From positions 124,001 through 188,000 of the forward strand of contig NZ_BIFH01000027.1 of NCBI RefSeq assembly GCF_003967355.1: a stretch of 64,000 nucleotides of DNA, in the 5' to 3' direction. Position numbers and translations under genes: made by a program. Within the stretch, counting starts at the first letter, position 1. Each line of letters begins with the position of its first letter. The notes beneath the pieces are model-generated. The model was given only the letters and a program-made list of their open reading frames with translations, searched no databases and was not told the origin of the DNA. Shown here one piece after another: positions 25,370 to 44,709 of this stretch. Source of the stretch: Embleya hyalina. GTDB lineage: Bacteria; Actinomycetota; Actinomycetes; Streptomycetales; Streptomycetaceae.

Positions 25370-25509
25370 GGCGGGAGGGCGACGGGCGGGCGGCCCGGGA
25401 TCCGAGGACCGAACACGGTCACTCCATGAATCCTACCAATGACCCGGAGTGATGAATCCGGGATGCGAGCCGTTACCCACATCCCGGCCGGTCGTTGGAC
25501 AGTAACGGG

Positions 25510-28437: not shown

Positions 28438-29802
28438 ATACCCGACAGCGGGTACGGGGCGGGCGAGGCCGGGCCGTATGGGCCGGGTGAGGGCGGCTCG
28501 TATCGGCCGGGTGGGGGCGGTTCCCACGCCTCGGGTGGGGGCGGCCGGCACGGAGCGGGTGAGCCGGTCCCGTACGCGCCCGAGGACTATGCGCGGGACC
28601 TGGTCGACCCCGGCTTCACCGCACCGCCCACAGCGGCCCTTCCGGCCGTTTCGGACCCGATTCCGGGCGGGCGCGCGGCCCGTCGGCGGGCCGCGCAACG
28701 CCAGCGGGCCGAGTCGATCGAGGAGACGGCGGTCCACATGCCGCCGGCGGCGATGGTGGAGGCGCCTCGGGCGCTGCCGGGGGCGCGGGCCTCGGCGGGT
28801 GCGCCGGACAGGGTGGGGGCGGCGGGCGCCGTGGAGGCGTCCGACGCGATGGACGCGTGGTTTCGGGCCGACGCGGGGGTGGTGGGCGCCGATCCGGTGC
28901 TCGACCCGGCGTACGCGCCCGCTCCGGAGGCCGTTCCGCCGTCGCCGGGCGGCGGCGCGGTCGTACCCGGCGGGCGGGCGGAGCGACGCAGGGCGCAGCG
29001 GAGGAAGGCCGGCCGGGGCGGCTCCCCTCCACCCGCGCGCCCGGGGCCGGCCGAGGGTGCCGGACGGGCCGCCCGGCGGCGGGCGGCCAAGCCGTCGACG
29101 GGCGCGCGGATACTGACCGCAGGCGCCCGCCTGGTGGGCGAACTCGCGATGACGGTGGGCGTACTGCTCGTCCTGTACGTGGTGTACCTGACCTGGTGGA
29201 CGAACATCGTGGCGGCGGAGAAGGCCAGGAACGAGGCGCACGACATACAGCAGAGCTGGAACAACACGCCCGGCCAGGTGGTCGACCCGCGCAACCCCGG
29301 CCAGTACGTCGCCCCGAACAAGGGATTCGCGCTGCTGTACATCCCCCGGATCGGGATGGAGAAGCAGGCGATCGCGGAGGGCACCGACCGGGGCAAGGTG
29401 CTCAACAACGGCCTGGTGGGCCACTACAACGACCCGAAGACGGCGATGCCTTGGGACGCCCAGGGCAACTTCGCGGTGGCCGCGCACCGCAACGGGCACG
29501 GCGAGCCGTTCCGCTACATCAACAAGCTCAAGCCCGGCGACAAGGTGGTCGTGGAGACCGCGACCACGTACTTCACGTACACCGTCGACGCGGACCTGCC
29601 GCAGACCTCGCCGTCGCACATCCAGGTGATCGATCCGATCCCCGACAAGGGGCCGTACACGAAGCCCGGCCGCTACATCACGCTGACCACGTGCACGCCG
29701 GACGGCGCCTCGACGTATCGGTTGATCGTCTGGGGCCACCTGGAGGAGGAGCGGCCGCGTTCCCAGGGCAAACCGGACGCGCTGCTGTCCGGGGCGAAGT
29801 GA
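28438..29802 (+). CDS. Class E sortase with long disordered N-terminus (second of three; start uncertain)
   Basis: The C-terminal ~220 residues form a sortase: membrane helix (ELAMTVGVLLVLYVVYLTWW), histidine in AAHRNGHGEPF, cysteine in TLTTCTP, arginine in YRLIVWGHL. An Arg/Ala/Gly-rich cytosolic region of about 230 residues precedes it. The start is a problem: GGAGGGG at 28428-28434 is correctly spaced from an ATA at 28438, but no ATG, GTG or TTG occurs in frame from there until ATG 28738. Upstream alternatives (TTG 28351, ATG 28225) lie inside pabA without a clear site. The coordinates given assume ATA. Confidence 0.8.
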   Translation: MPDSGYGAGEAGPYGPGEGGSYRPGGGGSHASGGGGRHGAGEPVPYAPEDYARDLVDPGFTAPPTAALPAVSDPIPGGRAARRRAAQRQRAESIEETAVHMPPAAMVEAPRALPGARASAGAPDRVGAAGAVEASDAMDAWFRADAGVVGADPVLDPAYAPAPEAVPPSPGGGAVVPGGRAERRRAQRRKAGRGGSPPPARPGPAEGAGRAARRRAAKPSTGARILTAGARLVGELAMTVGVLLVLYVVYLTWWTNIVAAEKARNEAHDIQQSWNNTPGQVVDPRNPGQYVAPNKGFALLYIPRIGMEKQAIAEGTDRGKVLNNGLVGHYNDPKTAMPWDAQGNFAVAAHRNGHGEPFRYINKLKPGDKVVVETATTYFTYTVDADLPQTSPSHIQVIDPIPDKGPYTKPGRYITLTTCTPDGASTYRLIVWGHLEEERPRSQGKPDALLSGAK

Positions 29803-29867: not shown

Positions 29868-30623
29868 ATGGGCGCTGTACGCAAAACGATTCGCGTCGGG
29901 GCGGAACTCCTCCTGACCCTGGGCCTGGTCGGCCTGCTGCTGTGTGTGCACCAGCTCTACTGGACCAACTTCGAGGCCCGGGCCGAGGCCCGCAACGAGG
30001 TGGAACAGCTGCGCAAGGACTGGGCCCGCCAGGGCACCGCCGAACCACCCGCCGCGCAGCAACCCACCGACGTCCTGGACGGTCCCACCGACGTCAGCGT
30101 GGACGGCGGCAAGGACGGCCAGAAGGTGGTGGGTTCGCACACCATCCGCGGCGAGACGCTGGCCATCCTGTGGATCCCCAGGCTCGGCTCGGACTGGTAC
30201 CAGCCGATCATCGAGGGGTCGAGCCTGGCCTCGCTCTCGAAGGGCGTCGGCCACTACACGTACCCGCCCTACGTCGGCCCCGGCGGCGCCGGCAACTTCG
30301 GCCTCGCCGGCCACCGCAACGGGCACGGCGAGCCGTTCCGCCACCTGAACAACCTGCGGGCGGGCGACAAGGTCGTGGTGGAGACCAAGTCCCAGTGGTT
30401 CACGTACACGATCGTCAAGGGCCCGTTCATCACCAAGCCCTCCAACGGCTCGGTCCTCACCTCCCGCCCCCCGGACCTGGGCGGGCCCGCCGGGCGCAGC
30501 CTGATCACCCTGACCACGTGCGATCCGGAATTCACCTCCAAGAACCGCATGATCTATTGGGGCGAACTCACCACGACGGACCCGAAACAGGGCGACGCGA
30601 AGCCGGCGGCCCTGCGCCGCTGA
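29868..30623 (+). CDS. Class E sortase (third of three)
   Basis: A 251-residue sortase with a membrane helix (LLLTLGLVGLLLCVHQLYW), catalytic histidine in AGHRNGHGEPF, cysteine in TLTTCDP and arginine in NRMIYWGEL. The start is ATG 29868; no ribosome binding site is apparent, so a leaderless message is possible. It resembles the second sortase in its core more than the first, suggesting local duplication. Substrates would be LAXTG-type cell-wall proteins, none of which is in this window. Confidence 0.9.
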   Translation: MGAVRKTIRVGAELLLTLGLVGLLLCVHQLYWTNFEARAEARNEVEQLRKDWARQGTAEPPAAQQPTDVLDGPTDVSVDGGKDGQKVVGSHTIRGETLAILWIPRLGSDWYQPIIEGSSLASLSKGVGHYTYPPYVGPGGAGNFGLAGHRNGHGEPFRHLNNLRAGDKVVVETKSQWFTYTIVKGPFITKPSNGSVLTSRPPDLGGPAGRSLITLTTCDPEFTSKNRMIYWGELTTTDPKQGDAKPAALRR

Positions 30624-32602: not shown

Positions 32603-32631
32603 AACACGTAGAGAAAGTTTGAACGCACGGC
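32603..32631. repeat. 29-bp direct repeat, copy 1
   Basis: A 29-bp sequence that begins AACACGTAGAG and ends GAACGCACGGC is identical to 36503-36531. It lies 11 bases past the 122-residue gene, at the edge of the old integrase remnant. Confidence 0.85.
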
Positions 32632-32860
32632 ATTACCGGCCCGACGGGTGGGCTCTGTCTCCGGAAGCCCAACAGCACCCCGAGCACCAGCGGAAGAAGC
32701 GCACACCGAGCCCTCCACCGGCCGTCGTCATGCGAACCCCTCGGTTCGCGCGGGTGCGAGGCAGGATCCAGGCGATCACGAACAGGATCACGGCCACGGC
32801 AGATCCCGAACTCGAAGGGCTCGGAGGCGATGCCGTCGACCTCCAACGCGACGATCTCCC
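32632..32860. other. Non-coding remnant between repeat and integrase fragment
   Basis: No intact gene is supported. This is probably decayed element DNA between the 29-bp repeat and the truncated integrase. Confidence 0.45.
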
Positions 32861-33134
32861 ACACTCGGACCGGATCGTGGTGGTTCACGTTCCACGAAGG
32901 GCGGGACACGCAGTCGACGTGGCTTGCGGAAGCCAAGATTCGGGAGGTCGCTCGGCGGGCTCGGCTCGGCCACAGGATGCCGGACATCGCGCGGGTCTAC
33001 GAAAGCACGTGACGCCGGAGATGGAACGGCAAGTACTGGACGCTCTCAACCACGATGAACGCGCCCGGCTCATAACCTGGTTTCCGCACCTGGAGGCGGT
33101 CATTGCCGAACTCCTGGAAGGGCGGGCGGCCTGA
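32861..33134 (+). pseudogene. 3' fragment of a tyrosine integrase, frameshifted
   Basis: One frame encodes WWFTFHEGRDTQSTWL, then VARRARLGHRMPDIARVYE, matching the C-terminus of the intact integrase at 43263-44549 (WFTFHEGRHTQSTWL; ARLGHKMPGIARVYE). At about 33003-33006 two extra bases relative to the intact gene shift the frame, which then continues as HVTPEMERQVLDAL to a GRAA ending. The HxxR histidine is changed to Asp (EGRD for EGRH). The 5' two-thirds are missing. It is the relic of an older element at the same att site. Confidence 0.85.
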
Positions 33135-33166
33135 TTCGGCTCACCCCTAAATGGCCCCTAAGTTGA

Positions 33167-33205
33167 TCAAGGGCCCTTCCCCGGCGTACGGGAAAGGGCC
33201 CTTGA
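33167..33205 (+). terminator. Terminator of the integrase remnant
   Basis: The arms 33167-33178 and 33194-33205 form a stem of the same sequence class as the hairpin after the intact integrase (44579-44621), supporting homology of the two element ends. Confidence 0.75.
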
Positions 33206-33216
33206 CCTGCATGTAC

Positions 33217-33266
33217 GAGAGTGGGCCTAACAGGACTTGAACCTGTGGCCTCTTCCTTATCAGGGA
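33217..33266. other. attL: att copy (left end of the AICE)
   Basis: This 50-bp segment is identical to 44631-44680, which contains the 3' half of tRNA-Ile. Here only the 3' half of the tRNA is present (from 33222); the sequence then diverges, so it is not a functional tRNA. It marks the junction between the old remnant and the present element. Confidence 0.92.
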
Positions 33267-33379
33267 TGCTCGGGCACCCCTCTGACCTGGGCAGACGCAG
33301 AGGACCCTTGCGTCACAAGGACCGTTGCCCCGGGTTGCGACGGGTTCCGGCGCCTTCCCGTCCGTTCCTCACCCCTAAA

Positions 33380-33607
33380 TCACCCCACATACATGGGAAC
33401 AAGATCGGCTTCGCAGGCTCGACTCAACGGGGGCACCTCGGCTCCCACGGGCGTGCTTGGCCCGGTCCGATCGAAGCATCGTCTGCACGCGTACTCGCTC
33501 CACCCGGGTCCGCTCGCGGTGACCACGCGGCGTACGACTTCGACGTCATCCCGCATCTCCGAGCAGCGATGGCAGAAACGCTTGCGTGCAGGTTGAGGCA
33601 GCGTCAT
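33380..33607 (-). CDS. Small cysteine-rich AICE protein
   Basis: A 75-residue protein starting at ATG 33605-33607. Two CxxC-type pairs (FCHRCSEM and YACRRCF) flank ASGPGWSEY, forming a likely single zinc-binding knuckle. Its start overlaps the stop of the upstream gene (ATGA), so it is the last gene of the leftward small-gene operon. Similar small zinc proteins occur in Streptomyces integrative elements; role unknown. Confidence 0.6.
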   Translation of the reverse strand: MTLPQPARKRFCHRCSEMRDDVEVVRRVVTASGPGWSEYACRRCFDRTGPSTPVGAEVPPLSRACEADLVPMYVG

Positions 33608-34128
33608 ACGAAGGCGGTCCCTCGGGATGTGATGGTGAAGGGTCGATCGCATCCGGCGCGGCCGGCTTCCGCTGCGTCTCGGCGCTCTCGCCGTACAACT
33701 CCCTCGTGCCGTCGCACGGCTTCCCGCTGCTCTCGCTCGGCGGCTTCCCGCTCCATCTGTTCGCCGCGGCGGACCCAGTAGGCATCCTCCTTGGCCTGCT
33801 TCCGGGCTCGCTCCTCCCAAAGCCGAGTCACGAACGGACGTACGAGCACATAACCGGGCTCGAACTCGGGCTCAGCCAGCACGGAGGACACAGGGCCAGG
33901 TGCGGCGATCACAGCCGGCTCGCGGGCAGCAACGTCCTCGGACGTCGGCGGGATGAAGTCGCGCCAAGTCACACCACTGGCCTTCCGCGTGGGCCTGGGC
34001 GTGCTCGGTCCGGCTGGGCGGGGTCGGCTCGGGCTGCTTGTGGGGCGAGCACGATGCATGCCGGTCGCCGTCGACGGGGCGGGACGTCCGAGAACCCATC
34101 CGAGTAAGCGGGCAATAAGCTCTGTCAT
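33604..34128 (-). CDS. AICE hypothetical protein with arginine/glutamate-rich C-terminus
   Basis: A 174-residue protein: a short hydrophobic start (MTELIARLLGWVLG), a Pro/Arg/Ser-rich middle, then VLVRPFVTRLWEERARKQAKEDAYWVRRGEQ leading into a charged helix rich in Arg and Glu (to about residue 160), probably a coiled coil. VRPY/VRPF-type proteins of this layout recur in Streptomyces AICEs. Function unknown. It is coupled to the zinc-knuckle gene downstream. Confidence 0.6.
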   Translation of the reverse strand: MTELIARLLGWVLGRPAPSTATGMHRARPTSSPSRPRPAGPSTPRPTRKASGVTWRDFIPPTSEDVAAREPAVIAAPGPVSSVLAEPEFEPGYVLVRPFVTRLWEERARKQAKEDAYWVRRGEQMEREAAEREQREAVRRHEGVVRRERRDAAEAGRAGCDRPFTITSRGTAFV

Positions 34129-34169
34129 TGCTTGGTCAGCTCCTGCTCAGGAATCGCTGATCGGCTATG

Positions 34170-34199
34170 CCTGGGGGCCGTTAGGCGACGGCCCCCAGG
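34170..34199. terminator. Hairpin within the leftward AICE operon
   Basis: The arms 34170-34181 and 34188-34199 pair perfectly over 12 bases with a six-base loop. It lies between the 97-residue and 174-residue genes and may attenuate or terminate transcription. The rest of 34129-34347 holds no supportable gene. Confidence 0.55.
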
Positions 34200-34347
34200 T
34201 GCTTGCATGTCTGCCCCTGGTCCGCGCGGAAGAGCTTCACCGCACCCGAAAGTGCCCTGGCGTTGAAGCTGGTTCACTGGATCAACTCCGCCCAGACGGC
34301 GCGATCCTGCGGGCCGCGAATCTGCATCGCGCGAGCAAGGGTGAGGG

Positions 34348-34641
34348 TCAGCTCGGCGGCTTGGCCCGGTACAACTCGGAACCCTTCAGCATGTACGGCA
34401 TGCCGCCCGGCGGAAGCACAATGACCACCTGGTCGTTGTCGAGCCCGGGTGAATTCTCGGCTCGCTCGACCCGCCCGGCGAGGTAGGCGTCGTGGCCGAA
34501 CCCGGGGCGCGGGGCGACCCAATCGCCAACCTTGATCCGCTCGGGCGCGCGGCGAAGTTCCTCACGGGGCGGCAGGGTGCGTGCCTCGATCACCGGCACA
34601 ACATCGCCGGTTGCGGTCACCACGAAGTCGGGGCGCGTCAC
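34348..34641 (-). CDS. AICE hypothetical protein, 97 residues
   Basis: The start is GTG 34639-34641, with GAGGA upstream. The product begins VTRPDFVVTATGDVVPVIEA and contains IKVGDWVAPRPGFGHDAYLAGRVERAE, a beta-rich KOW/SH3-like stretch, then VVIVLPPGGMPYML. No family name can be assigned. It overlaps the stop of the 44-residue gene upstream (GTGA). Confidence 0.55.
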   Translation of the reverse strand: MTRPDFVVTATGDVVPVIEARTLPPREELRRAPERIKVGDWVAPRPGFGHDAYLAGRVERAENSPGLDNDQVVIVLPPGGMPYMLKGSELYRAKPPS

Positions 34642-34772
34642 GACGGGGTTCCTCGGCGGGGAGCAGGGAACCACGCGTCCGCGCGAGCGAGATACCAACG
34701 ACGTGCCCGCCGCACGATGACGGCCCGTTGGGCAATCTCTCGCGGGGTCAACAGTGATTCGCCACGGCTCAT
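34638..34772 (-). CDS. Small AICE protein, 44 residues
   Basis: The start is ATG 34770-34772, eight bases after GGAGG. The product MSRGESLLTPREIAQRAVIV continues with an Arg/Trp-rich helix and stops at TGA 34638-34640, overlapping the GTG of the next gene. The strong site and coupled stop/start make it a likely real small gene. Unknown function. Confidence 0.5.
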   Translation of the reverse strand: MSRGESLLTPREIAQRAVIVRRARRWYLARADAWFPAPRRGTPS

Positions 34773-34799
34773 GCGCCCGTCCTCCTAATCGGCTGGTGT

Positions 34800-34887
34800 C
34801 CGGCGTGCCGTATCGCGGGGTGTACCGACACGGCACGCCGGAGTCGGGTGCCCTGGTGTCGGGGGCTCGGGCCGGGGACGACACCAG
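34800..34887. promoter_or_regulatory. Two consecutive hairpins in the leftward operon
   Basis: Stem 1 pairs 34800-34811 with 34830-34841 (12 bp); stem 2 pairs 34851-34860 with 34878-34887 (10 bp). They separate the 80-residue gene from the 44-residue gene and could form a terminator or an RNA control element. Confidence 0.5.
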
Positions 34888-34894
34888 GGGCAAT

Positions 34895-35137
34895 TCAGTA
34901 ATCGGTATGCAGGTAGCGGCAGTTCGCCGAGCACGCACACGGCGGCTCGTTCCTGGGCGCTCCGTCGCCCCACGGCCACGGGGCCGACGCTGACCCGAAA
35001 ACCCTTGTGTGCGCGATGAGTTCCCGTGTGCCGTCCTGATCGATGCGACGGATCGAGAGGGTCATTTCGCTACGCGAAGACTGCGGCAACTCGTTGAATC
35101 CGCCACCCGGCGAACGGCCGTGACTGGGCTCAACCAT
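34895..35137 (-). CDS. AICE hypothetical protein, 80 residues
   Basis: ATG 35135-35137 follows GGAGG at six bases. The product has MTLSIRRIDQDGTRELIAHT in the middle and ends CACSANCRYLHTDY. It is the first gene of the leftward set and divergent from the GntR gene, so it may be under its control. No function is known. Confidence 0.5.
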   Translation of the reverse strand: MVEPSHGRSPGGGFNELPQSSRSEMTLSIRRIDQDGTRELIAHTRVFGSASAPWPWGDGAPRNEPPCACSANCRYLHTDY

Positions 35138-35185
35138 GCTGCGCCTCCGCGAACTTGAGTGACTTAGATGACGCTAGCGTGTGGT

Positions 35186-35240
35186 CTAGTTCGCACTGAA
35201 CGGTCTTGGGAAGATTTGAGTTACCCTGCGAGTGAACTAG
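35186..35240. promoter_or_regulatory. Candidate GntR operator pair
   Basis: CTAGTTC at 35186-35192 and its inverse GAACTAG at 35234-35240 face each other in the divergent gap between the leftward small-gene operon and the GntR gene. KorSA-type GntR repressors of AICEs bind near their own promoter; that this is such a site is inference. Confidence 0.4.
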
Positions 35241-35268
35241 TTTGCTCGCCCAAACGAGAGAGCGTGGC

Positions 35269-35997
35269 ATGCCTAGCAACGTCAGATGGACAGCGATCGC
35301 AGACCACTACCGGGCTCAGGTCCTGTCCGGCGAGATAACCCCCGGCACCAAGTTGCCCAGTAACAAGGCACTTGCTGACTCTTGGGGAACAACCACCGCA
35401 ACCGTGAGTCGGGCCCTTGGCAACCTGGTGGTTGAAAAGGTCCTGTACACATCCCCACGGGGAACATACGTAGCGGATGCTCCGTACTCCTCGGCGTCGG
35501 CGAGTGACCGACTCACCCGGGTGCACCGTACGAAGTCGGCGTTGATGGACGGAGAGACCATCGTCGTAACGGCCGCTGGCCTGGTGGTACCGCCGAACTA
35601 CATACGAGAGATGTTCCAGCTCGATCACGGAGATCAAATCGTTCGGCGCGAATCCGTGATCGGTCGCGGTAAGACGCGAACTGCCCTGACCGTGACGTGG
35701 CATCCGGTCGAGTTCCTGGGCTTGGTGCCGGATCTCGTCAGTACGGCTGTTGGCAAGGCAGCTGGGCTGACGGACAAGGTCCTTACCGCCACTGGCCGGA
35801 AGATCACGCACGGCCGTGACGACATGCACGCGCGAACGGCGGATGCGCGCGAGGCTTCACACCTGGGGGTCCCCATTGGTGCGTCCATCCTCGGCCTGGG
35901 ATACAGGTGGTCCGACGAAGCAGGGATCATCGAGTTCGGGGAAGTGTGCCTGCCATCGATGTTGACCATTGGCTACCCGTACGAACTCGCAGACTGA
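35269..35997 (+). CDS. GntR-family regulator (KorSA-like) of the AICE
   Basis: The start is ATG 35269 (MPSNVRWTAIADHYRAQVL). In this 242-residue protein the winged helix occupies residues 5-70: SGEITPGTKLPSNKALADSWG and TVSRALGNLVVE. The C-terminal UTRA-like ligand-binding domain follows (FQLDHGDQIVRRESVIGRG to IIEFGEVCLP). In pSAM2 the related KorSA keeps replication and transfer genes off; the same role is likely here. It stands alone between the leftward operon and the non-coding region. Confidence 0.83.
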   Translation: MPSNVRWTAIADHYRAQVLSGEITPGTKLPSNKALADSWGTTTATVSRALGNLVVEKVLYTSPRGTYVADAPYSSASASDRLTRVHRTKSALMDGETIVVTAAGLVVPPNYIREMFQLDHGDQIVRRESVIGRGKTRTALTVTWHPVEFLGLVPDLVSTAVGKAAGLTDKVLTATGRKITHGRDDMHARTADAREASHLGVPIGASILGLGYRWSDEAGIIEFGEVCLPSMLTIGYPYELAD

Positions 35998-36135
35998 TCC
36001 ATCCCACGGCTGACGCCCCGTCATCTACGTGTATGCAGGGTGACGGGGCTTCGCAAAGGGCGAGTCCCTCGAACTCCGCAGCCTGAAGGCCGACGTCCCA
36101 CCCGACTTGGGCCCCCTACGGAAGGCGACCCACGG

Positions 36136-36178
36136 CCCCGGGCCCCGGTGTGCCGGGGCCCGGGGTGGCACACCGGGG
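36136..36178. repeat. Overlapping alternative hairpins
   Basis: Arm set A is 36136-36148 with 36153-36165 (13 bp, loop TGTG). Arm set B is 36143-36154 with 36167-36178 (12 bp). Both are perfect and share bases, so only one can form at a time. Confidence 0.7.
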
Positions 36179-36400
36179 TTTCGGCGCGCGGGTCACGCAA
36201 CCCGAGTATCAAATGGGGTCCTACGAAGCCGCGGGGCCAAACCTCGGCCAGGCCAACGCAAGTCCTACGCAACGAGCGCGCCCCCGGCGTGGCCGAAGGC
36301 CACGGGTCGCCCCCCAGGCGACTCGCAGCGCAGCTGCGAACCTGTCCTGCGGAAGTCTGCTTCACCACCAGGCCGTGCTCCTGGTCCTCGTCGTGGTTTC

Positions 36401-36498
36401 GCGGTTCTTGGCCGCCGGCGCGGCTCCCGCTGGGCCGGAGGCGGAGGCGGGGGCCGCGCCGGCGGCCAAGAACCGCGCGGCCCCGCGTGCGGGGCCGC
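36401..36498. repeat. Perfect 24-bp inverted repeat followed by a second hairpin
   Basis: 36401-36424 is the exact reverse complement of 36453-36476, enclosing 28 bases; immediately after it 36477-36486 pairs with 36489-36498. The total folded structure would be about 98 bases. Confidence 0.8.
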
Positions 36499-36502
36499 CT
36501 TG

Positions 36503-36531
36503 AACACGTAGAGAAAGTTTGAACGCACGGC
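36503..36531. repeat. 29-bp direct repeat, copy 2
   Basis: Identical to 32603-32631. It lies four bases after the second hairpin of the structured region. Confidence 0.85.
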
Positions 36532-36717
36532 GCTTGCTGCCAGAACCTGAGCTTCAGATTTCTCGATGATTTTTACGCCAACAGACCAGCGGCAAAGACG
36601 GACAAGCCCACCCGCAATACTGGCGTTGGGACTGTGCCGTGCGTCGACCAGCAGTTTTTTTGCCAGTGGGCCGGATGACGACTCGTAGTCTCGTGATCAC
36701 TACGGAAGGGGGCCACC

Positions 36718-37926
36718 GTGGAGACAACGGGGCAACGGATCGCGCGGGCACGGCACCGCAAGGGTTGGGACCAGGCGACGTTAGCGACTGAGGCTGGACG
36801 CTCGGTCAGCTGGGTGTCGAAGGTTGAGAACGGGCGTGTGCCTGTCGACCGGATGAGCGTCCTCGCCAAGCTGGCGAACGTCCTCGGCGTTGAGGTAGTC
36901 GAGTTGACGGGGCAGCCCTACCGCCACGAGACCGAAGAACTCGACTCCGGCCACGGGGGCATCCCGGCGCTTCGTCGGATGCTGCATCACGCGACGCTGC
37001 CCGGTGGGTCGTCGCTGGTCGGCTCCCGCCCCCCTCGGTCACATGACGAGCTGGCAGCCGAAGTTCAGTTCGCCGAACGGCTCCGCCAAGACGCCAAGTT
37101 CACCGCGCTGGGGGAGGTTCTTCCCGGTTTGATCGAGAGCCTGATCGTCTCCATCGGGGCCGCTTCGGGAACCGAGGTCGATCGCCTCGAAGCTCTCATG
37201 CTGCGGACCTGCCACATGGCACGGGTGACAGCCAACCTGCTCGGACACCATGACCTCGGGTGGACGGCCGTACAGCGCGAGTTGACCGCCGCACAGCGGG
37301 TCGGATCGCCCGAACTTGTGGCTGCTGCGACCTGGGACATGTGCGGCGTCTGGCTCCATGGCGCGTCCATCGACGATGCCAAGGCGACTGCAATCACAGC
37401 GCTCGATGCTCTCGACCCCATCGTGGGCGGCGGCGATCCGACCATCCTTTCCCTGTGGGGCGCGATGCACCTCCGGGCCGCGGTGGCGTACTCCCGCTTG
37501 TGGTCGAAGCCGGAAGCTGACGCACACCTCACAGAAGCGGCCCGGGTCGCTGCGCTGGTGCCGTCGGACGGCAACGTCTTCCAGACGCAGTTCAATCAGG
37601 TCAACGTCACCATTCACGCCGTGGAGATCGCCACCGAACTCGGTCGGCCGCGGGACGCCGTGACGTCGGCTGACGAAGTCGCCATCGGCACCATCGCATC
37701 GGCAGAACGTCAGTCGCACTACTGGGTCTGCTCTGCTGCGGGCTTCTTCATGAACCGCCAAGAGGACAAGGCGGTGGAGTCACTCCTGCAAGCCGACCGG
37801 ATCGCGCCCCAGCACGTGCGCAACCGTCCGCAAGTTCGGAACCTGGTCGACGACCTTCGCACGAGTGGGAAGCACACGAAGTCGCGGGAAGTGCGCAGTC
37901 TGGCCACGCGCATGGGTCTCGCCTAG
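36718..37926 (+). CDS. XRE-family regulator of the AICE
   Basis: A 402-residue protein starting at GTG 36718 behind GGAAGGGGG. Residues 5-62 are an XRE helix-turn-helix (RIARARHRKGWDQATLATEAGRSVSWVSKVENGRV). The remainder is all-helical with TPR-like repeats (AATWDMCGVWLHGASIDDAKATAI...), like actinobacterial regulators whose TPR domain may sense peptides or other ligands. It heads the rightward half of the element; such regulators often control AICE transfer, but the target is unknown. Confidence 0.83.
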   Translation: METTGQRIARARHRKGWDQATLATEAGRSVSWVSKVENGRVPVDRMSVLAKLANVLGVEVVELTGQPYRHETEELDSGHGGIPALRRMLHHATLPGGSSLVGSRPPRSHDELAAEVQFAERLRQDAKFTALGEVLPGLIESLIVSIGAASGTEVDRLEALMLRTCHMARVTANLLGHHDLGWTAVQRELTAAQRVGSPELVAAATWDMCGVWLHGASIDDAKATAITALDALDPIVGGGDPTILSLWGAMHLRAAVAYSRLWSKPEADAHLTEAARVAALVPSDGNVFQTQFNQVNVTIHAVEIATELGRPRDAVTSADEVAIGTIASAERQSHYWVCSAAGFFMNRQEDKAVESLLQADRIAPQHVRNRPQVRNLVDDLRTSGKHTKSREVRSLATRMGLA

Positions 37927-38001
37927 TCAGTCAGCCGGCTCGTACACGGCGGCGGTCCGATCGGGGGCCGCCGCTGGTCTTCTTGATGCCTTGGGGGCAC
38001 A

Positions 38002-38181
38002 GTGACACCCGCTGAAATGCGCATCGTGGCGGCCAAGCTCGAAGAACTCGCTGCCATGCATGCCGACTTAGGGCAGAGGATCAACCGGCTTGCTGACCTT
38101 GTCCGGCCTGGCTCTCAAGCTGAGTCACGCGATCCGCAAGAGCCTGCATGCCGTCACCCAGGGACTCAAGCTGCCGCATGA
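38002..38181 (+). CDS. Possible small coiled-coil AICE protein
   Basis: GTG 38002 follows GGGGGCACA. The first 35 residues (VTPAEMRIVAAKLEELAAMH...) form a heptad-like helix; the rest is unstructured and overlaps the 3' end of the convergent GntR gene by about 100 bases. It may be a real short gene with a fortuitous tail or not translated. Confidence 0.35.
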   Translation: MTPAEMRIVAAKLEELAAMHADLGQRINRLADLVRPGSQAESRDPQEPACRHPGTQAAA

Positions 38182-38479
38182 TGGCTGCGAACTCCGGGCT
38201 GGACGGTTGTGAAGCGCTCCGCGCCTCGTCGTCTGCGGCTTCGGCGGCCCGGTCGCGGACGAAGTTTCCACGCCCCTGCACTGAGTAGACGAAGCCCTTG
38301 TCCTTGAGCCGCTTGAGCGCGCTCTGAACCGTGCCGTTCGAGATCCCGTACTCCTGCTGGAGCTGGGTGCCGGACGGCAGCTGGTCACCTGCCTTGAGGT
38401 CGCCCGACAGGATCTTTGCTTCAAGATCGTCGGCAGCCTGAAGGTAGGGCGGGCGCGGGTCGTCCGCTGGCGTGCGCAT
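38081..38479 (-). CDS. GntR-family winged-helix regulator of the AICE
   Basis: The start is ATG 38477-38479 (MRTPADDPRPPYLQ), giving 132 residues. The winged helix spans residues 10-75 (ILSGDLKAGDQLPSGTQLQQEYGISNGTVQSALKRL). The C-terminus is a coiled coil (IMRQLESLGDGMQALADRVTQLESQ), with no ligand domain, as in short plasmid-type GntR proteins. It is divergent from the SCO3933-family gene; the palindrome at 38553-38568 between them is a likely operator. Confidence 0.83.
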   Translation of the reverse strand: MRTPADDPRPPYLQAADDLEAKILSGDLKAGDQLPSGTQLQQEYGISNGTVQSALKRLKDKGFVYSVQGRGNFVRDRAAEAADDEARSASQPSSPEFAAIMRQLESLGDGMQALADRVTQLESQAGQGQQAG

Positions 38480-38549
38480 GTTCTGAGCGTAGCGCCATAT
38501 ACGCCTCATCTCTTCCAAGACTTCTAAATATCCAGAGCACACATACAGG

Positions 38550-38577
38550 TTGACTCTTCTAGAAGAGTTAGTAATGT
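38550..38577 (+). promoter_or_regulatory. Promoter with embedded palindromic operator
   Basis: A -35-like TTGACT (38550-38555) and a -10-like TAATGT (38572-38577) are separated by 16 bases. The perfect 16-bp palindrome ACTCTTCTAGAAGAGT (38553-38568) overlaps the -35 and spacer. A GntR dimer here would block the promoter of the downstream regulator. Confidence 0.65.
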
Positions 38578-38622
38578 TGGGTCAGCCGGGTACGACAGAT
38601 ACCCCAGCAGAGAGGCTTTACC

Positions 38623-38955
38623 ATGCGTTCCATCCCCGTTGACACCTCGGCCGCGATGCTCATGTGCGCCACCGAACCGCAGGTCAAGCTGAAGGACCTG
38701 AAGACCGGTGAGGTCTCCACCGACCGCGACACCGGAGCGACGCTCTACACGGTCGGCATCGTCTTCATCGCGAACGGTGCGGCGGACGTCGTGAAGGTCA
38801 CGGTTCCTGAGCCGGGCCTCCCGAACGGGCTGACCGCCGGTTCGCCGCTGGTCCTCACGGGCCTGGTTGCGCTGCCCTGGGAGAACAACATGGGCGGCCA
38901 GATGCGGCACGGAGTGGCCTTTCGTGCCTCCGCCGTGGCGCTGAAGGCGGCCTGA
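38623..38955 (+). CDS. SCO3933-family regulatory protein
   Basis: A 110-residue protein starting MRSIPVDTSAAMLMC. The family pattern is clear: VKLKDLKTGEVSTDRDTGATLYTV, an IKV-type VVKVTVPEP stretch, then TGLVALPWENN and a closing HGVAFRASAV. Members occur in Streptomyces AICEs and plasmids beside the transfer gene, and are thought to help switch on replication or transfer. It opens a rightward operon with the next genes and is preceded by the promoter at 38550-38577. Confidence 0.85.
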   Translation: MRSIPVDTSAAMLMCATEPQVKLKDLKTGEVSTDRDTGATLYTVGIVFIANGAADVVKVTVPEPGLPNGLTAGSPLVLTGLVALPWENNMGGQMRHGVAFRASAVALKAA

Positions 38956-38959
38956 CTAC

Positions 38960-39211
38960 ATGTCCGGCCGAGCGCGATGCCTGGCTGCGCACCCGGACGA
39001 CTCAAGCGAATGTGACGGCGCTTCCGATCTCGTGCGCGTAGTCGATTCGCATGGTCGTGAGGTGCGCGGCTGTATCCACCATGCCTCGCGCATGCTCGCT
39101 TCCCTGGATGGCGCCCGGGTCTACCCGGGCGCCTCCGGCGGGGCGGCCATCGAGACGTTCAACCGGGCGCAGGACATCCAGCCCTTCGCCTGGCTCACTG
39201 GAAGGGGCTGA
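38960..39211 (+). CDS. Conserved AICE hypothetical protein, 83 residues
   Basis: ATG 38960 is four bases past the upstream stop. The product contains RCLAAHPDDSSECDGASDLV, a GCIHHASRMLASLDG helix, and IETFNRAQDIQPFAWL. Cys/His spacing could bind metal. This type of protein commonly sits between the SCO3933-family gene and the tra gene of AICEs. Function unknown. Confidence 0.65.
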   Translation: MSGRARCLAAHPDDSSECDGASDLVRVVDSHGREVRGCIHHASRMLASLDGARVYPGASGGAAIETFNRAQDIQPFAWLTGRG

Positions 39212-39215
39212 TCCT

Positions 39216-40544
39216 GTGGGATCTCCCGATCTCGTCGGCATGGTTCCCGAAGCCATCGCCGGTCTGGCAGCCGTCTACGGCGGCTCCAAAGTGACCCGCT
39301 ATGCCCGCGCTGACCGCGACACACGGGCCAGCATTCGGCAGGCATACCGCATACGTCGCCGGTGGAGACGCTTCGCACCGATGGCAGGGTTGTTTGCCCT
39401 CCAAGCCCCGGGACGACTCGCCGCGTTACGGACGCCGGACGGGTTCGCTCCCGTTCCGAAGACGCTGATTCCGACCCTCAAGACTCGACCCGACCGATTC
39501 GGCGTCACAGTCACGGCCAACACCCTGCCGAAGGTGGGTCTGACGGCTTGGCGGTCGGCCGAAGAGTCCTTGAGGGACGCGTGGGGCTTCCCGCGCGTCA
39601 AGATCTCGCAGCCGAAGCCGGGGCTCGTTCTCGTTCGCGGATTCCGGAACGAACCGCTCGACACGCACACCGACTCGGTCCTCATGACGTCGGGAGGTGA
39701 CCTCTGCTTTCAGCCCGGGGAGCTGACCTCCGAAGACCCGATCTTCCTCGGCTTCACGGAAGACGGTGAACCGGTCCGGCTGAACCTTCGCCGGTCTGCC
39801 CATGGACTCATCGCCGGGGTGACTCGCTCGGGGAAGTCGATCACCACGAACACGCTCTTGGCCGCAGCCTCACTGATGCGCGACGTGCGGATGGTGGTCA
39901 TCGATCCGAACCTTGCCGCGGCGGCTCCCTGGTGGCGTACCGCCCACACAGTCAGCAGCTCGGTTCAACCAGACGAGCCGATCGAGATCCTTCGCGAGAT
40001 CCGTGCGGAGATGGAACGGCGAGCTGGCACCTTCTGGGCCGGTCGCACGGACCGGATCGAGACCTTCTCGGAAGAGATGCCCCTGATTCTCCTGGTGATC
40101 GACGAGGTGGCGAACTACACCCGTCATCCCGACAAGAAGAAGCGTGAGGCGTTCGAGGCCGAACTGAGCGCCATCGCTTCCCAGGGCGCGAAGTACGGCG
40201 TGCGGCTGTGGTTGCTCGCACAGAAGCCGTCGGCGGATGTCCTGACTACCGCCATCCGCACCAACCTGTCCTCCCGTATCTGCCATCGCGTGGACACGAC
40301 TGAAGACTTCCTCCACCTCTTCCCGGATGGCCGCGACCTCGACGTCACGGCAGCCGATCGGAGCATGCCCCCGGGTGTCTCCATCGCCTCGCTGGGTGAC
40401 ATGAGGACGCCTTCACGAATGCGCTCGGTCTACCTCTCGACTGAGGACTGTTGGCGGATCAACGACGCGATGTGTGCTGCGGGCCTTCAGATACGTGAGC
40501 TGCCGGAGTCCGCACCCTCAATGCCCTTTGACGCTGCCGCGTAA
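39216..40544 (+). CDS. FtsK/SpoIIIE-like DNA translocase (AICE transfer protein)
   Basis: The start is GTG 39216 behind GAAGGGG. The 442-residue protein has a short charged N-terminus (RADRDTRASIRQAYRIRRRWRR), then a RecA-like motor: Walker A GVTRSGKS near residue 200, Walker B LLVIDEV near residue 292, and sensor region LLAQKPSADVLTTAIRTNL. In Streptomyces such Tra proteins pump double-stranded DNA between hyphae and are enough for conjugation. No N-terminal membrane helices are obvious, so membrane attachment may come from the DUF2637 protein. Confidence 0.9.
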   Translation: MGSPDLVGMVPEAIAGLAAVYGGSKVTRYARADRDTRASIRQAYRIRRRWRRFAPMAGLFALQAPGRLAALRTPDGFAPVPKTLIPTLKTRPDRFGVTVTANTLPKVGLTAWRSAEESLRDAWGFPRVKISQPKPGLVLVRGFRNEPLDTHTDSVLMTSGGDLCFQPGELTSEDPIFLGFTEDGEPVRLNLRRSAHGLIAGVTRSGKSITTNTLLAAASLMRDVRMVVIDPNLAAAAPWWRTAHTVSSSVQPDEPIEILREIRAEMERRAGTFWAGRTDRIETFSEEMPLILLVIDEVANYTRHPDKKKREAFEAELSAIASQGAKYGVRLWLLAQKPSADVLTTAIRTNLSSRICHRVDTTEDFLHLFPDGRDLDVTAADRSMPPGVSIASLGDMRTPSRMRSVYLSTEDCWRINDAMCAAGLQIRELPESAPSMPFDAAA

Positions 40545-40565
40545 GCGGTGGGAGGAGTGCCCTCC

Positions 40566-41351
40566 GTGCCCGACCGCAGTCACACTGCCTCGGGAGACGA
40601 CGTCTTCACACGGCGCACCGTTACCGCCGTCATGGTCCTCATCGCCGTGCTGGCCTTCGTCTTCTCCTTCGGCAACGTCTGGGCCCTGGCTCTGCGCCTG
40701 GGCATCCCCGCCTCGATCGCGCCACTCGTTGCGCCGATGGTCGACCTATCCGTCGTCGGCCTGCTCGTCGGCCTTCGCTACCTGTCTCTTCGTGGCGTTC
40801 CTGAGTCCGAACTCACTGATGCCACGCGACTCATGCATCTGTGTGGCTTCCTGACGCTGGCACTGAACGTCGCCGACCCGCTGATGCTCGGTCTGTACGG
40901 CAAGGCTGCGGTGGACGCCGTGGCCCCCGTGCTGCTGCTGGGCTGGGGCAAGGTCGGACCACAGTTCCTGCGCCACTTCCACACAGAGCGGCCGGTCGAC
41001 TTCACACCGGGACACGTGGCCCCGGTCAAACTCCAGGCGAATGACGAACCGGCACCCGCCCCGGTGCTGCCCGATGAGTCGCCTCGGGAAGAGACTCCCA
41101 ATCTGCCTGCCGCTCCGTCGACGGTCACCCAAGATCCGAAACCTGTGGAGTCGCGTCCGACCAATGGTCTCGAACCTCCTCCGGCGCTCGTCCAAGCTGC
41201 GCGGCGACTGGCTCAAGATCATCACGCACGCACCGGTGACCCGATCGACACAGCCACTCTGAAACAGAAACTCGGCCTTCCGATGGCCCTGGTCCTCGCC
41301 GTGCAAGCACGACTCGGCGACGTCGAAACTGTCGGCCGCTCTACCGGCTGA
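40566..41351 (+). CDS. DUF2637 membrane protein (SpdB-like spread protein)
   Basis: The GTG at 40566 is preferred, ten bases after GGAGG; GTG 40548 and 40557 are alternatives. The 261-residue protein has four membrane helices, including AVMVLIAVLAFVFSFGNVWALAL and LMHLCGFLTLALNVADPLML. A Pro/Glu-rich tail ends in a helix-turn-helix-like segment (DPIDTATLKQKLGLPMAL). DUF2637 proteins in Streptomyces elements are linked to intramycelial plasmid spread. It lies 21 bases after tra and before rep. Confidence 0.83.
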   Translation: MPDRSHTASGDDVFTRRTVTAVMVLIAVLAFVFSFGNVWALALRLGIPASIAPLVAPMVDLSVVGLLVGLRYLSLRGVPESELTDATRLMHLCGFLTLALNVADPLMLGLYGKAAVDAVAPVLLLGWGKVGPQFLRHFHTERPVDFTPGHVAPVKLQANDEPAPAPVLPDESPREETPNLPAAPSTVTQDPKPVESRPTNGLEPPPALVQAARRLAQDHHARTGDPIDTATLKQKLGLPMALVLAVQARLGDVETVGRSTG

Positions 41352-41484
41352 CCTTCTCCTTGCGGCCGGTGTGACCACTTCACGCCAAGTCCCTACCCGC
41401 CCCATGCCTCTTTCCGGTCGGGCGCGTCCCACGTCCAGGTCGACGCGCCCGGCCCGTCTTCGCTCAGGAAGGACAGACCCACCG

Positions 41485-42951
41485 ATGACAGCGCCACACC
41501 CCGTTGGCGGCCCCCTCGATGCCACACGACACACGCTGCTTTCACGGGCCGGCTCCGCCTCGTTCCCTGCCTGGCTGGCCCAAGTCAAGCGGACCGGCGG
41601 ATGCGCTCACCCGATCCGACTCACAGGTGAGTCCACAACTGTGGATAACGAGTCGGGGGCAACGCTCCACCGGTTCTCGACCTACGAACAGCCAACCGGA
41701 AGCCTCTTGGTGGCTTGTGGAAACCGCCGAGCAACGCGCTGCCCGTCGTGCTCGGAGACCTACCGCGCGGACACCTTCCAGCTGATCCGCGCCGGGCTGA
41801 CAGGCGGCAAGTCGGTTCCGGAATCGGTTCGCTCCCACAGCAGGGCGTTCGTCACCCTGACGGCACCCTCGTTCGGTGCCGTTCACAACCGGGCCAAGAC
41901 CCCTGCGGGCAAGTTGCTCGCCTGCCGATGCGGCAAGCACCATCCCGATGACGACCCTGCGCTCGGGACGCCTCTCAACCCCGGCACGTACGACTACGTG
42001 AGCGCGGTCCTCTGGAATGCCCACTCTGGCAAACTCTGGGCCCGGTTCACGACTCTGGTGCGTCGTCGCCTCGCCGCACTCGGGGGCCTGACTCAGCGCG
42101 AACTCCCTCATGTCGTGCGGGTGTCCTTCGCCAAAGTCGCCGAGTACCAGCGGCGTGGCTCGATCCACTTCCACGCCGTGATTCGCTTGGACGGCCCCTT
42201 GAGCGGCCAAGACCCGGCGGTCGTGACCGAACCCCCATCGTGGGCGACGGCTGACGTGCTTGCCGAAGCCGTCCGTGACGCTGCATGCGGCACCCGACTG
42301 CGGTCGTCCTTCGAAGCCGTCGGCCCCCGTGAATATCGCTGGGGCGAACAGCTCGACATCCGCCCCATCTCGGAACTCGGCTCCGGCGAACTCACCGATC
42401 GAGCCGTGGCCGGCTATGTAGCCAAGTACGCCACCAAAGGCGCTGAGGTCGCCGGGACCGTGGACCGTTCACTCTGCTGCCGCCGGTGCTCGGGTGTCGG
42501 GTCGCTGCTCCGCGGGGCCCCTCCGTGTCACAGCTGCGACGGTTCGGGCCTCGCGCGGCCGATCGAGACTCTCGACATCGACCCGCATGCACGCCGGATG
42601 ATCCGGGCCTGCTGGGACCTCGGCGGCCTGGTCGACCTCGCCGGACTGAACCTTCGCAAGTGGGCGCACATGCTGGGATTCGCCGGACACTTCTCCACGA
42701 AGTCCCGCCGGTACTCGACCACGCTCGGGGCGCTCCGCTCCGTCCGCACCGACTGGCGCGCCGAACAAGTCCGCGCCCTTCACGGCCTCCCAAACCCCTG
42801 TGACGGCTCCACGCTCGTCGTAGGCCACTGGGCCTTCGCCGGGTCCGGACACACGCCCGGAGAGGCGCTCTTGGCCGCCGGCGTCCGCCGAGACCTCGAC
42901 CTCAATCGCCGGACGGCAAAAGAGGAACTCGCCGCGGAGCGTGCGGCTTGA
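41485..42951 (+). CDS. repSA: RepSA-family rolling-circle replication initiator
   Basis: ATG 41485 follows AGGAAGGA. The 488-residue protein resembles RepSA of pSAM2: zinc-like C-x2-C pairs (CPSCSETYRAD; CRCGKHH), the HUH metal motif SIHFHAVIRLDGP near residue 227, and a second Cys cluster (CCRRCSGVGS...PCHSCDGSG). It should nick the element's origin after excision and covalently hold the 5' end. A DnaA-box-like pair lies inside its 5' end (41629-41648). Its stop overlaps the TTG of the excisionase gene. Confidence 0.9.
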   Translation: MTAPHPVGGPLDATRHTLLSRAGSASFPAWLAQVKRTGGCAHPIRLTGESTTVDNESGATLHRFSTYEQPTGSLLVACGNRRATRCPSCSETYRADTFQLIRAGLTGGKSVPESVRSHSRAFVTLTAPSFGAVHNRAKTPAGKLLACRCGKHHPDDDPALGTPLNPGTYDYVSAVLWNAHSGKLWARFTTLVRRRLAALGGLTQRELPHVVRVSFAKVAEYQRRGSIHFHAVIRLDGPLSGQDPAVVTEPPSWATADVLAEAVRDAACGTRLRSSFEAVGPREYRWGEQLDIRPISELGSGELTDRAVAGYVAKYATKGAEVAGTVDRSLCCRRCSGVGSLLRGAPPCHSCDGSGLARPIETLDIDPHARRMIRACWDLGGLVDLAGLNLRKWAHMLGFAGHFSTKSRRYSTTLGALRSVRTDWRAEQVRALHGLPNPCDGSTLVVGHWAFAGSGHTPGEALLAAGVRRDLDLNRRTAKEELAAERAA

Positions 42952-43244
42952 GCACTGACGAACTGACGGCCCGTGTCGAAGACCTGACGCGAATTCTGTC
43001 CGCCCTGATCACCTCTGCTGCCACTGCACCCGTGGGCGCTCTCCTGACCGCCGACGAACTGAGCGATCGATTCAGGATCCCTGCCCGCACCCTCCGGGAC
43101 ATGGCCAGTGCGGGCCTGATCCCACACCACCGACTCGGCAAGCATTACCGGTTCGCCGCCGACGACATCACAGACATCCTGCGCATCACGCGTCAACAGC
43201 CGGTCTCGCGACACGCGCGCGCCCGGCTCGCCACTGCTGCCTGA
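42948..43244 (+). CDS. xis: Excisionase-like helix-turn-helix protein
   Basis: The start is TTG 42948, overlapping the rep stop (TTGA), with GGAG upstream. In this 98-residue protein a MerR-like helix-turn-helix (LLTADELSDRFRIPARTLRDMASAGLIPHHRLGKHYRF) marks the excisionase family used by AICE integrases to direct excision. Its place between rep and int is the standard one. Confidence 0.83.
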   Translation: MSTDELTARVEDLTRILSALITSAATAPVGALLTADELSDRFRIPARTLRDMASAGLIPHHRLGKHYRFAADDITDILRITRQQPVSRHARARLATAA

Positions 43245-43262
43245 CTCACGGGGGAAACGAAC

Positions 43263-44549
43263 ATGGCACACGCAGAAAGCACCCGTGGAGTCTGGCGCGG
43301 CCGATACATGCGCCCGGACGGCACGCGCGGGTCCACCCCTTCCTTCTCCACACGGAAGCTCGCCCTGTCCGCTGCGCAGGACGAAGAATCGCGCATCCGA
43401 CACAACACGTGGACGGATCCTCGCCTGGCCGAAAGACCCTTCGGAGAGTTCGCTGAGGACTGGTTCAAGGCGGTGTGCCCGCGCCTGGCCCCCTCCACTG
43501 TGGCCAAGTACCGCAGCCACCTCGATCGGCAGATCCTGCCGACCTGGGCGGCGTGGCCCATGATCGCCATCTTCAACAGCCATCTTGAGATCGAGAAGTG
43601 GGTCTCAGAGTTGTGCGAAGATCACGCCGAATCCTCGGTGGCGTCGTACTTCGCGTTGTTCTCCACAGTCATGACCGCCGCTGTACGGGCCCGAGTAATC
43701 CCCGCCAGTCCATGCTCCGGCATCCGTGTCACGTCCGGCGGCTACGAGACAGAGAAGTACGTCGCGACGCCTGTACAGGGCCTGCGGGCGGCCATGCGCC
43801 TGCATGAGACAACCGGCCTGAGTGGCTTCGTGTTGTGCCTCCTCGACCTGTACACCGGCGCCCGTTGGGGTGAACTGGTCGGGCAGACGGCGGAGGAGTA
43901 CAACCCAGATACAGGTGCGATCGCTCTCCACCGCCCCCTCAAGGAGGTGGGCGGCAAGCTGGTCAAGGACGGTCAAAGCGTTCAGGAGACAACCGACCTC
44001 CTGTCGAGTTCCCGGCGGCCTCGGCGCAAGCGCACCGGACGGGGCAAGACCGCTTCCTCGGAACGATGGGTGACGCTGCCACCGAGCATGGCCGTGCTCT
44101 ATGAACTGCTGCTCGACAGCCACGACCATGAGTTCAGCTTCACCGCACCGGAGGGCGGCGGGCTGTACCGGGGCCACTTTCGCGAACGCTTCTGGCGCCC
44201 GGCCTGGGACGGCGTCGATGCGGACGATCCCGATTCACCGGCTCACCAACCGCCGATCCTTCGGTGGTTCACGTTCCACGAAGGGCGACACACGCAGTCG
44301 ACGTGGCTCGCAGACGATGATGTGCCGGAAGTCGCCCGGCGGGCTCGCCTCGGCCACAAGATGCCGGGTATCGCACGGGTCTATGAACACGTGACGCCGG
44401 AAATGGAGCAGCGGGTATCCGACGTCCTTGAGGCTCGCTGGGATGCCTCACTGCTGGCGCTCGACGCGAACGAACGCGAAACGCTCGTCGGCCTGCTCCC
44501 GCACCTGGGGCCGGTAATCGCCGACCTGGAGGAGAACCGGGCGGCCTGA
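43263..44549 (+). CDS. int: Site-specific tyrosine integrase of the AICE
   Basis: A 428-residue recombinase. The SAM-like N-terminal domain covers residues 60-150. Catalytic residues: arginine in TGARWGELVG (near 200), HxxR in FTFHEGRHTQSTW (near 338), histidine-region LGHKMPG, and nucleophile tyrosine in IARVYEHV (near 372). It joins the 50-bp att sites within tRNA-Ile. It lies next to the tRNA, followed by a strong terminator. A broken relative lies at 32861-33134. Confidence 0.94.
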   Translation: MAHAESTRGVWRGRYMRPDGTRGSTPSFSTRKLALSAAQDEESRIRHNTWTDPRLAERPFGEFAEDWFKAVCPRLAPSTVAKYRSHLDRQILPTWAAWPMIAIFNSHLEIEKWVSELCEDHAESSVASYFALFSTVMTAAVRARVIPASPCSGIRVTSGGYETEKYVATPVQGLRAAMRLHETTGLSGFVLCLLDLYTGARWGELVGQTAEEYNPDTGAIALHRPLKEVGGKLVKDGQSVQETTDLLSSSRRPRRKRTGRGKTASSERWVTLPPSMAVLYELLLDSHDHEFSFTAPEGGGLYRGHFRERFWRPAWDGVDADDPDSPAHQPPILRWFTFHEGRHTQSTWLADDDVPEVARRARLGHKMPGIARVYEHVTPEMEQRVSDVLEARWDASLLALDANERETLVGLLPHLGPVIADLEENRAA

Positions 44550-44578
44550 TCCGGATTCCCCACTATTTCCCCACACAT

Positions 44579-44621
44579 GATCAAGGGCCCTTCCCCGATG
44601 AATGGGGAAGGGCCCTTGATC
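44579..44621 (+). terminator. Terminator after the integrase gene
   Basis: The 18-base arms 44579-44596 and 44604-44621 pair perfectly with a seven-base loop, 30 bases past the integrase stop. Confidence 0.88.
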
Positions 44622-44630
44622 TGCACTTAT

Positions 44631-44680
44631 GAGAGTGGGCCTAACAGGACTTGAACCTGTGGCCTCTTCCTTATCAGGGA
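44631..44680. other. attR: att copy (right end of the AICE, in tRNA-Ile)
   Basis: Identical over 50 bp to 33217-33266. It covers the 3' half of tRNA-Ile from the anticodon arm to just beyond the acceptor, so integration leaves the tRNA intact on this side. Confidence 0.92.
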
Positions 44681-44709
44681 AGCGCTCTAACCGTCTGAGC
44701 TATAGGCCC
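44636..44709 (-). tRNA. tRNA-Ile (GAT)
   Basis: A 74-nt tRNA with perfect acceptor GGGCCTA/TAGGCCC, D-arm AGCTCAGACGGTTAGAGC and anticodon loop CTGATAA giving GAT. No CCA is encoded. It is the integration target of the AICE. Confidence 0.96.

Follow-up and report, generated by a model that had tools for sequence, protein, structure and literature searches.

What is the function of the long inverted repeat that lies in a gene-free gap of an actinomycete integrative and conjugative element (AICE) of Embleya hyalina? The element is contained in the stretch of 64,000 nucleotides of contig NZ_BIFH01000027.1 that was analysed here (the window, to which all coordinates refer), and it encodes a replication initiator (Rep) of the RepSA type. 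An initial annotation had suggested that the repeat and a second hairpin beside it form a single-strand origin (sso) or double-strand origin (dso) of the AICE, or else a transfer site resembling a cis-acting locus of transfer (clt). The former part of this suggestion, an origin of the AICE, is well supported by the present results, while the clt part is not, and a putative RepSA nick box next to the hairpins had been overlooked. Judging from the sequence comparisons described below, positions 36128-36526 very likely constitute the origin region for rolling-circle replication of this RepSA-type AICE, consisting of a candidate sso, two hairpins and a dso nick box.

The repeat is real and its length had been understated. 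The arms given initially, 36401-36424 and 36453-36476, are reverse-complementary without a mismatch, and the perfect part extends over 25 bp rather than 24, within full arms of 31 nt that contain one mismatch (36400-36430 and 36447-36477). This structure, called hairpin 1 (36400-36477, plus strand), was identified by inverted-repeat search and folding. With spacers of up to 60 nt, no perfect inverted repeat of the 64-kb window is longer than its 25-bp part, the next-longest ones being 21 and 18 bp. The second stem of 10 bp is likewise exact (36477-36486 and 36489-36498), and hairpin 2 (36477-36498, plus strand) is identified by the same two methods and by the adjacency of 3' arms to CTTG across sites. 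The surrounding gap is indeed free of genes over 720 bp, from the end of a GntR-type gene at 35997 to the start of an XRE-type gene at 36718. Folding, proposed initially as a check, gives z = -7.8 for 36390-36510 as RNA of the plus strand and z = -8.9 as DNA of the minus strand, and in neither case did any of 200 shuffles fold as well. In the origin region, no Rfam family was found at the gathering threshold.

The interval initially annotated ends at 36498, one base short of a conserved box. This box, with the sequence CTTGAACACGTAGAGAAAGTTTGAAC at 36499-36524, directly adjoins hairpin 2, and it is highly likely that it represents the RepSA nick region of the dso (36499-36526, plus strand), with a predicted cut CTTG^A at 36502/36503. 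In a strict form, defined by at most two mismatches to TTGAANACGTAGNGAAANTTTGAAC, it is present in 18 of 297 sampled genomes of the family, with 0 matches of the reversed-pattern control in every row; RepSA genes are present in 239 of the same genomes. When 17 loci were fetched around strict-box sites (L041-L057), RepSA was found by tblastn in 11 of them. Among the remaining six, a contig or stretch end truncates L046 and L053, L048 and L054 have matches to the transfer protein (Tra) and integrase with RepSA not found, no AICE gene was found in L052, and L057 is a remnant. One of these loci, L053, has three box copies (6273, 11281 and 14583, minus strand) in 8.4 kb together with several integrase matches, and is apparently a pile-up of AICE remnants.

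A looser pattern, CTTGA-N4-GTRRRRA, was set in view of 20 loci picked by RepSA alone. It matches once in each of these 20 loci and 0 times in the reversed sequence, and the match is in all 20 cases on the RepSA strand, 3.1-7.8 kb upstream of the RepSA open reading frame. With the pattern unchanged, a box upstream and on the same strand was found in 17 of 20 fresh, held-out RepSA loci (reversed 0), with one additional off-target match. It should be pointed out that both sets consist of the best-scoring RepSA among the matches listed and thus lean to the centre of the family. The pattern is also matched by a Nonomuraea RepSA locus and by three of six RepSA loci from plasmid records (L132, L133 and L135), while L131 is one letter off and L134 and L136, where no FtsK was detected either, have no box match. 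The type of box varies between RepSA subfamilies, examples being CTTGATGAGG and CTTGAACCC. As a separate observation, L132 is a 'plasmid' record of Streptomyces formicae (NZ_CP071873.1, 27,773 bases) in which a RepSA AICE is repeated head to tail every ca 10.4 kb, in two complete copies and a partial one; it may represent a multimer formed on excision or an effect of assembly.

The variation of the box follows that of RepSA more closely than that of the FtsK-type Tra or the integrase. Box distances were compared with protein distances by Mantel analysis in 32 of 45 loci, namely those having the box and all four proteins considered, and the correlations are 0.54 for RepSA, 0.52 for o38623 (a small protein encoded at 38623-38955 of the window), 0.38 for GntR and 0.35 for FtsK. 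In partial tests on these loci, RepSA given o38623 has a value of 0.31 and GntR given RepSA 0.25; in the 25 loci having an integrase, the value for integrase given RepSA is -0.07. Since the pairs are non-independent and the proteins evolve at unequal rates, these values constitute a ranking and not a proof. The protein o38623 has no Pfam match and its relatives lie beside FtsK in 39 of the 45 loci searched; it is possibly an accessory replication or transfer factor. A cognate HUH rolling-circle initiator, as expected for a dso, is encoded within the same element: RepSA at 41371-42951 (plus strand; PF20199, E 2.3e-151), with the motifs HFH and YVAKY that are invariant in 38 of 38 aligned RepSA sequences.

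Hairpins next to the box are found in the related loci too. At 55 unique box sites (63 before duplicates and one off-target match were dropped), the 110 nt upstream of the box have a mean fold z of -2.38, with 30 of the 55 under -2, compared to -0.46 and 9 of 55 for GC-matched controls (p 1.7e-6 vs box sites). The 3' stem arm ends within 3 nt of CTTG at 49 of 55 sites, vs 708 of 1100 shuffles. A lack of structural conservation in related AICEs had been named initially as a finding that would speak against an origin, and what is observed is that the folding is kept upstream of the boxes. A conserved nick-type sequence that lies beside a hairpin and is linked to the Rep, as seen here, is also what one expects of a dso.

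Further upstream, DNA is shared by elements with different Reps. Among 53 loci with RepSA and box, 809 of the 1378 pairs have a RepSA identity below 50%, and with a shared block defined as at least 80 nt, the block at -430..-130 relative to the box is common to 71 of these pairs and the one at -120..+30 to 101. The corresponding numbers for control regions are 1 (-1400..-950), 2 (+40..+340) and 3 (+600..+1050), and at this setting the window's own block is common to 0 of the 52 other loci. The block -430..-130 is also strongly folded in the 53 loci, with a mean z of -4.14 and 36 of 53 under -2, the controls having mean z values of -0.28 to -0.87 and 6 to 12 of 53 under -2. In 26 of the 53 loci it matches its own reverse complement (controls 0 to 2).

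This homology has an edge at CTTGA. For 211 of 1072 pairs with RepSA identity below 55%, chosen for a homologous -430..-160 region, a gapped profile has an identity of 0.59-0.75 from -425 to the box and of 0.39-0.45 from +20 to +300 (background 0.43); the value at +0..5 is only 0.67 despite the invariant CTTGA, which shows the wobble of the gapped alignment. With gapless anchoring, identity is 99% over -30..-1 and 36% over +17..+30 in 8 pairs out of the 1072, which involve 11 loci and were selected by their -60..-31 region. The clearest case is that of L047 and L200, two AICEs of one genome from the same genus as the window, whose RepSA proteins are 49% identical. Their upstream alignment of 477 nt is at 90% identity, and its last 51 nt are identical into CTTGA, after which the boxes differ. 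The sharing across Reps can reflect either exchange or a common constraint, and the sharp edge fits an exchange at the cut, albeit without being a proof of it.

At this point another interpretation has to be considered, in which the hairpins and the box all belong to an sso and the dso is located elsewhere, for example in or near repSA. The fact that the upstream block and the hairpins are common to different Reps, as for an sso, is in line with this. However, the box varies with RepSA and is different in elements with a common cassette, which is the behaviour of a Rep-specific nick region, and we consider this interpretation improbable. An sso upstream of a dso nick box is the preferred arrangement.

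In the window itself, the part of interest is a structured module at 36128-36347 (plus strand), identified by homology, folding and paired changes. It has 74-75% identity over 219 columns to stretches in two genomes of the same genus, and there are further matches of 57-64 nt elsewhere in the genus, including a third genome. Module matches occur in 55 of the 297 genomes, the long ones being confined to the genus of the window; those in other genera (26-65 nt among the matches listed) were treated as chance. The module folds with z -3.5, and 10 of its 62 predicted pairs are changed on both sides, as judged from three sequences of which two are close to each other. At three other sites (G001:C159, G003:C501 and G003:C1608) it is found on the strand of a variant box, CTTGATCTAGTAG, the match at G003:C501 being partial and at a contig end. 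The RepSA of G001 is only 26% identical to that of the window, which means that related DNA accompanies very different Reps; the nearer RepSA of G003:C501 is split into two pieces, and at G003:C1608 there is none among the matches listed.

The module thus has two properties expected of an sso, namely a strong single-strand structure and a position close upstream of the proposed dso, from whose box it is separated by 152 nt. An sso role is plausible because the upstream DNA is common to elements that differ in their Reps and occupies the usual position of an sso. On these grounds, 36128-36347, perhaps together with the hairpins, is a rather likely candidate for an sso of the host type.

Next in probability comes a clt-like loading site for the FtsK-type Tra protein. 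The transfer gene does lie downstream of the box in many loci, and inverted repeats may be present in clt loci already known (PMC3583192). Nevertheless, little association with FtsK is left once RepSA is accounted for: the partial Mantel value of FtsK given RepSA is 0.12, compared to 0.46 for RepSA given FtsK, and in the 25 loci with an integrase it is 0.016. Moreover, among the held-out loci the box is present in 13 of 14 with FtsK and also in 4 of 6 where FtsK was not found, in a search covering ca 11 kb upstream and less than 1 kb downstream of RepSA. Clustered short direct repeats of the clt type were not found either, as the interval 33270-44558 has no 8-mer with four occurrences in 300 bp; a single 9-mer is present three times at 42638-42906, within repSA. 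The clt-like site proposed initially is thus unsupported, and we regard it as quite unlikely. The four loci with RepSA and box in which FtsK was not found within ca 11 kb upstream (L167, L170, L174 and L176) are possibly satellite-like AICEs without a transfer gene of their own.

Less probable still is a terminator of transcription, or a regulatory hairpin, in the gap between the regulator genes. Strong GC-rich intergenic stems would be compatible with it, and in many related loci a GntR gene ends shortly past the box. Yet, it leaves unexplained both the conserved unpaired box and its fixed strand relative to RepSA, and a simple consensus scan of 35950-36750, which would miss actinomycete signals lacking a T run, gave 0 terminator-like (stem-loop plus T run) and 0 promoter-like signals. 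Finally, the terminus of a single-strand transposon, IS91-like or otherwise, can practically be dismissed. A hairpin beside CTTG is typical of IS91-like origins, but all 20 of the 20 loci picked by RepSA have a single box, at a comparable place upstream of RepSA, the sequence of the box tracks RepSA, and no transposase family was found among the scanned open reading frames of the window element.

There are, on the other hand, a number of observations that weigh against the proposed origin region of sso, hairpins and dso nick box. Three of the 20 held-out RepSA loci (L166, L168 and L180) are without a box match, and so are, with the looser pattern, distant RepSA loci from Gordonia, M. avium and Mycolicibacterium. 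The protein o38623 follows the box nearly as well as RepSA does (0.52, and 0.25 given RepSA), and it is a real competitor of RepSA for the association with the box. The hairpins are common to elements with different Reps and are therefore not the Rep-specific part, and hairpin 2, taken singly, exceeds shuffles only to a modest degree (10 of 42 sites at or below 4%). Of the block pairs, 209 match on the plus strand but 100 also on the minus strand, which leaves the orientation ambiguous, probably because the blocks are palindromic. Also, the module lies 1.2-1.8 kb upstream of the variant box in the three other Embleya elements, vs 152 nt in the window.

With the dso nick box and the candidate sso in place, the following mechanism can be proposed. 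RepSA would bind the origin and nick the plus strand in the box beside hairpin 2, most likely at CTTG^AACACG (36502/36503). The 3'-OH formed would then prime leading-strand synthesis rightwards, with displacement of a single strand. In this process, the upstream cassette, that is, 36128-36347, the palindrome and hairpin 2, would be the last part to be exposed as single strand, and it would most likely serve as sso for the synthesis of the second strand by host enzymes.

The edge of homology at the predicted cut leads to a more tentative proposal, which we consider possible but would not favour. RepSA AICEs might carry a swappable origin cassette of ca 430 bp (sso and hairpins) that is moved between Reps by strand transfer at the nick; the nick site would then also act as a joint for recombination, and the host lineage would select the cassette. 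A remnant of an earlier AICE left of the present one could be a fossil of such an event. It includes an integrase end (32879-33042) and a half box at 32603-32631 (plus strand), whose identity to the live box sets in precisely at the A that follows CTTG (32603), where a joint at the cut would place it; this is a single case, and an E. scabrispora remnant at a matching tRNA site joins inside hairpin 1 instead. Half boxes in which the A is preceded by any base but G (HANGACGTAGAGAAAGTYTG) number 0 in the 297 genomes, but the pattern is blind to copies of the window remnant, since it requires G where that remnant has C. If true, cassette exchange would explain how replication modules are mixed among these elements and how the elements become fitted to new hosts. 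The remnant as a whole, with half box, integrase end and att repeat (32603-33269), is at the same tRNA-Ile as the present element, and this site has apparently served for insertion more than once.

The AICE itself measures ca 11.4 kb between the att repeats 33144-33269 and 44558-44683 (both plus strand) at a tRNA-Ile gene. The left repeat has 85% identity over 126 nt to the right one, with an exact core of 50 bp, and the right one overlaps tRNA-Ile (44635-44709, minus strand). The gap is flanked by genes for a GntR/UTRA regulator on the left (35242-35997, plus) and an XRE-type regulator on the right (36718-37926, plus), and the latter is followed by a small GntR-type regulator (38081-38542, minus). 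Upstream of RepSA are the FtsK/SpoIIIE-type transfer protein (39051-40544, plus; PF01580) and a DUF2637 protein (40548-41351, plus; PF10935). Downstream of it are a small helix-turn-helix protein (42948-43244, plus; PF12728), which from its position may be Xis-like, and a tyrosine-type integrase (43263-44549, plus; PF14659, with a PF00589 match under its cut-off).

Two further features of the window can be mentioned. At 25392-25487, ARAGORN predicts a tRNA with a four-base anticodon (catc), which has no Rfam support at the gathering threshold and is probably spurious. Beside a sortase-domain gene there is a direct repeat of 133 nt (29464-29596 and 30291-30423), 77% identical and 827 bp apart.

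The type of origin proposed here is itself already known; a consensus for the box across RepSA AICEs, or a shared cassette with an edge at the cut, was not found in literature searches that covered open papers. The results give a testable origin position for a common group of mobile elements, and the box consensus can be used for annotating such origins and for designing actinomycete mini-replicons.

The closest known system is pSAM2 of Streptomyces ambofaciens, whose RepSA binds and nicks the dso, with a nick site of the pC194 type, as reported in PMC3218068. Its Rep belongs to the same family (PF20199, 'Replication initiator protein, pSAM2'), and the likeness to the pSAM2 dso is drawn from this family and from that description. 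Plasmids of the pC194 type and phiX174 likewise use an HUH initiator. Both pC194 and phiX174 are cut at CTTG^A, which equals the start of the box. Beyond CTTGA, however, the box (N4-GTAGAGAAA) is distinct from theirs, and the window RepSA has the two-tyrosine motif YVAKY. The sso of rolling-circle plasmids usually lies just upstream of the dso (PMC5037232, PMC4595007). The order proposed here is the same, whereas, in contrast to the sso of rolling-circle plasmids and of ICEBs1, the candidate matches no known sso family in Rfam at the gathering threshold. Exchange between rolling-circle replicons has been described for the qacC plasmids of Staphylococcus, with DSO and SSO bounding the piece that is moved (PMC5037232). 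While in that case a gene is mobilized between the two origins, the shared block here appears to be the origin cassette itself, with no gene needed.
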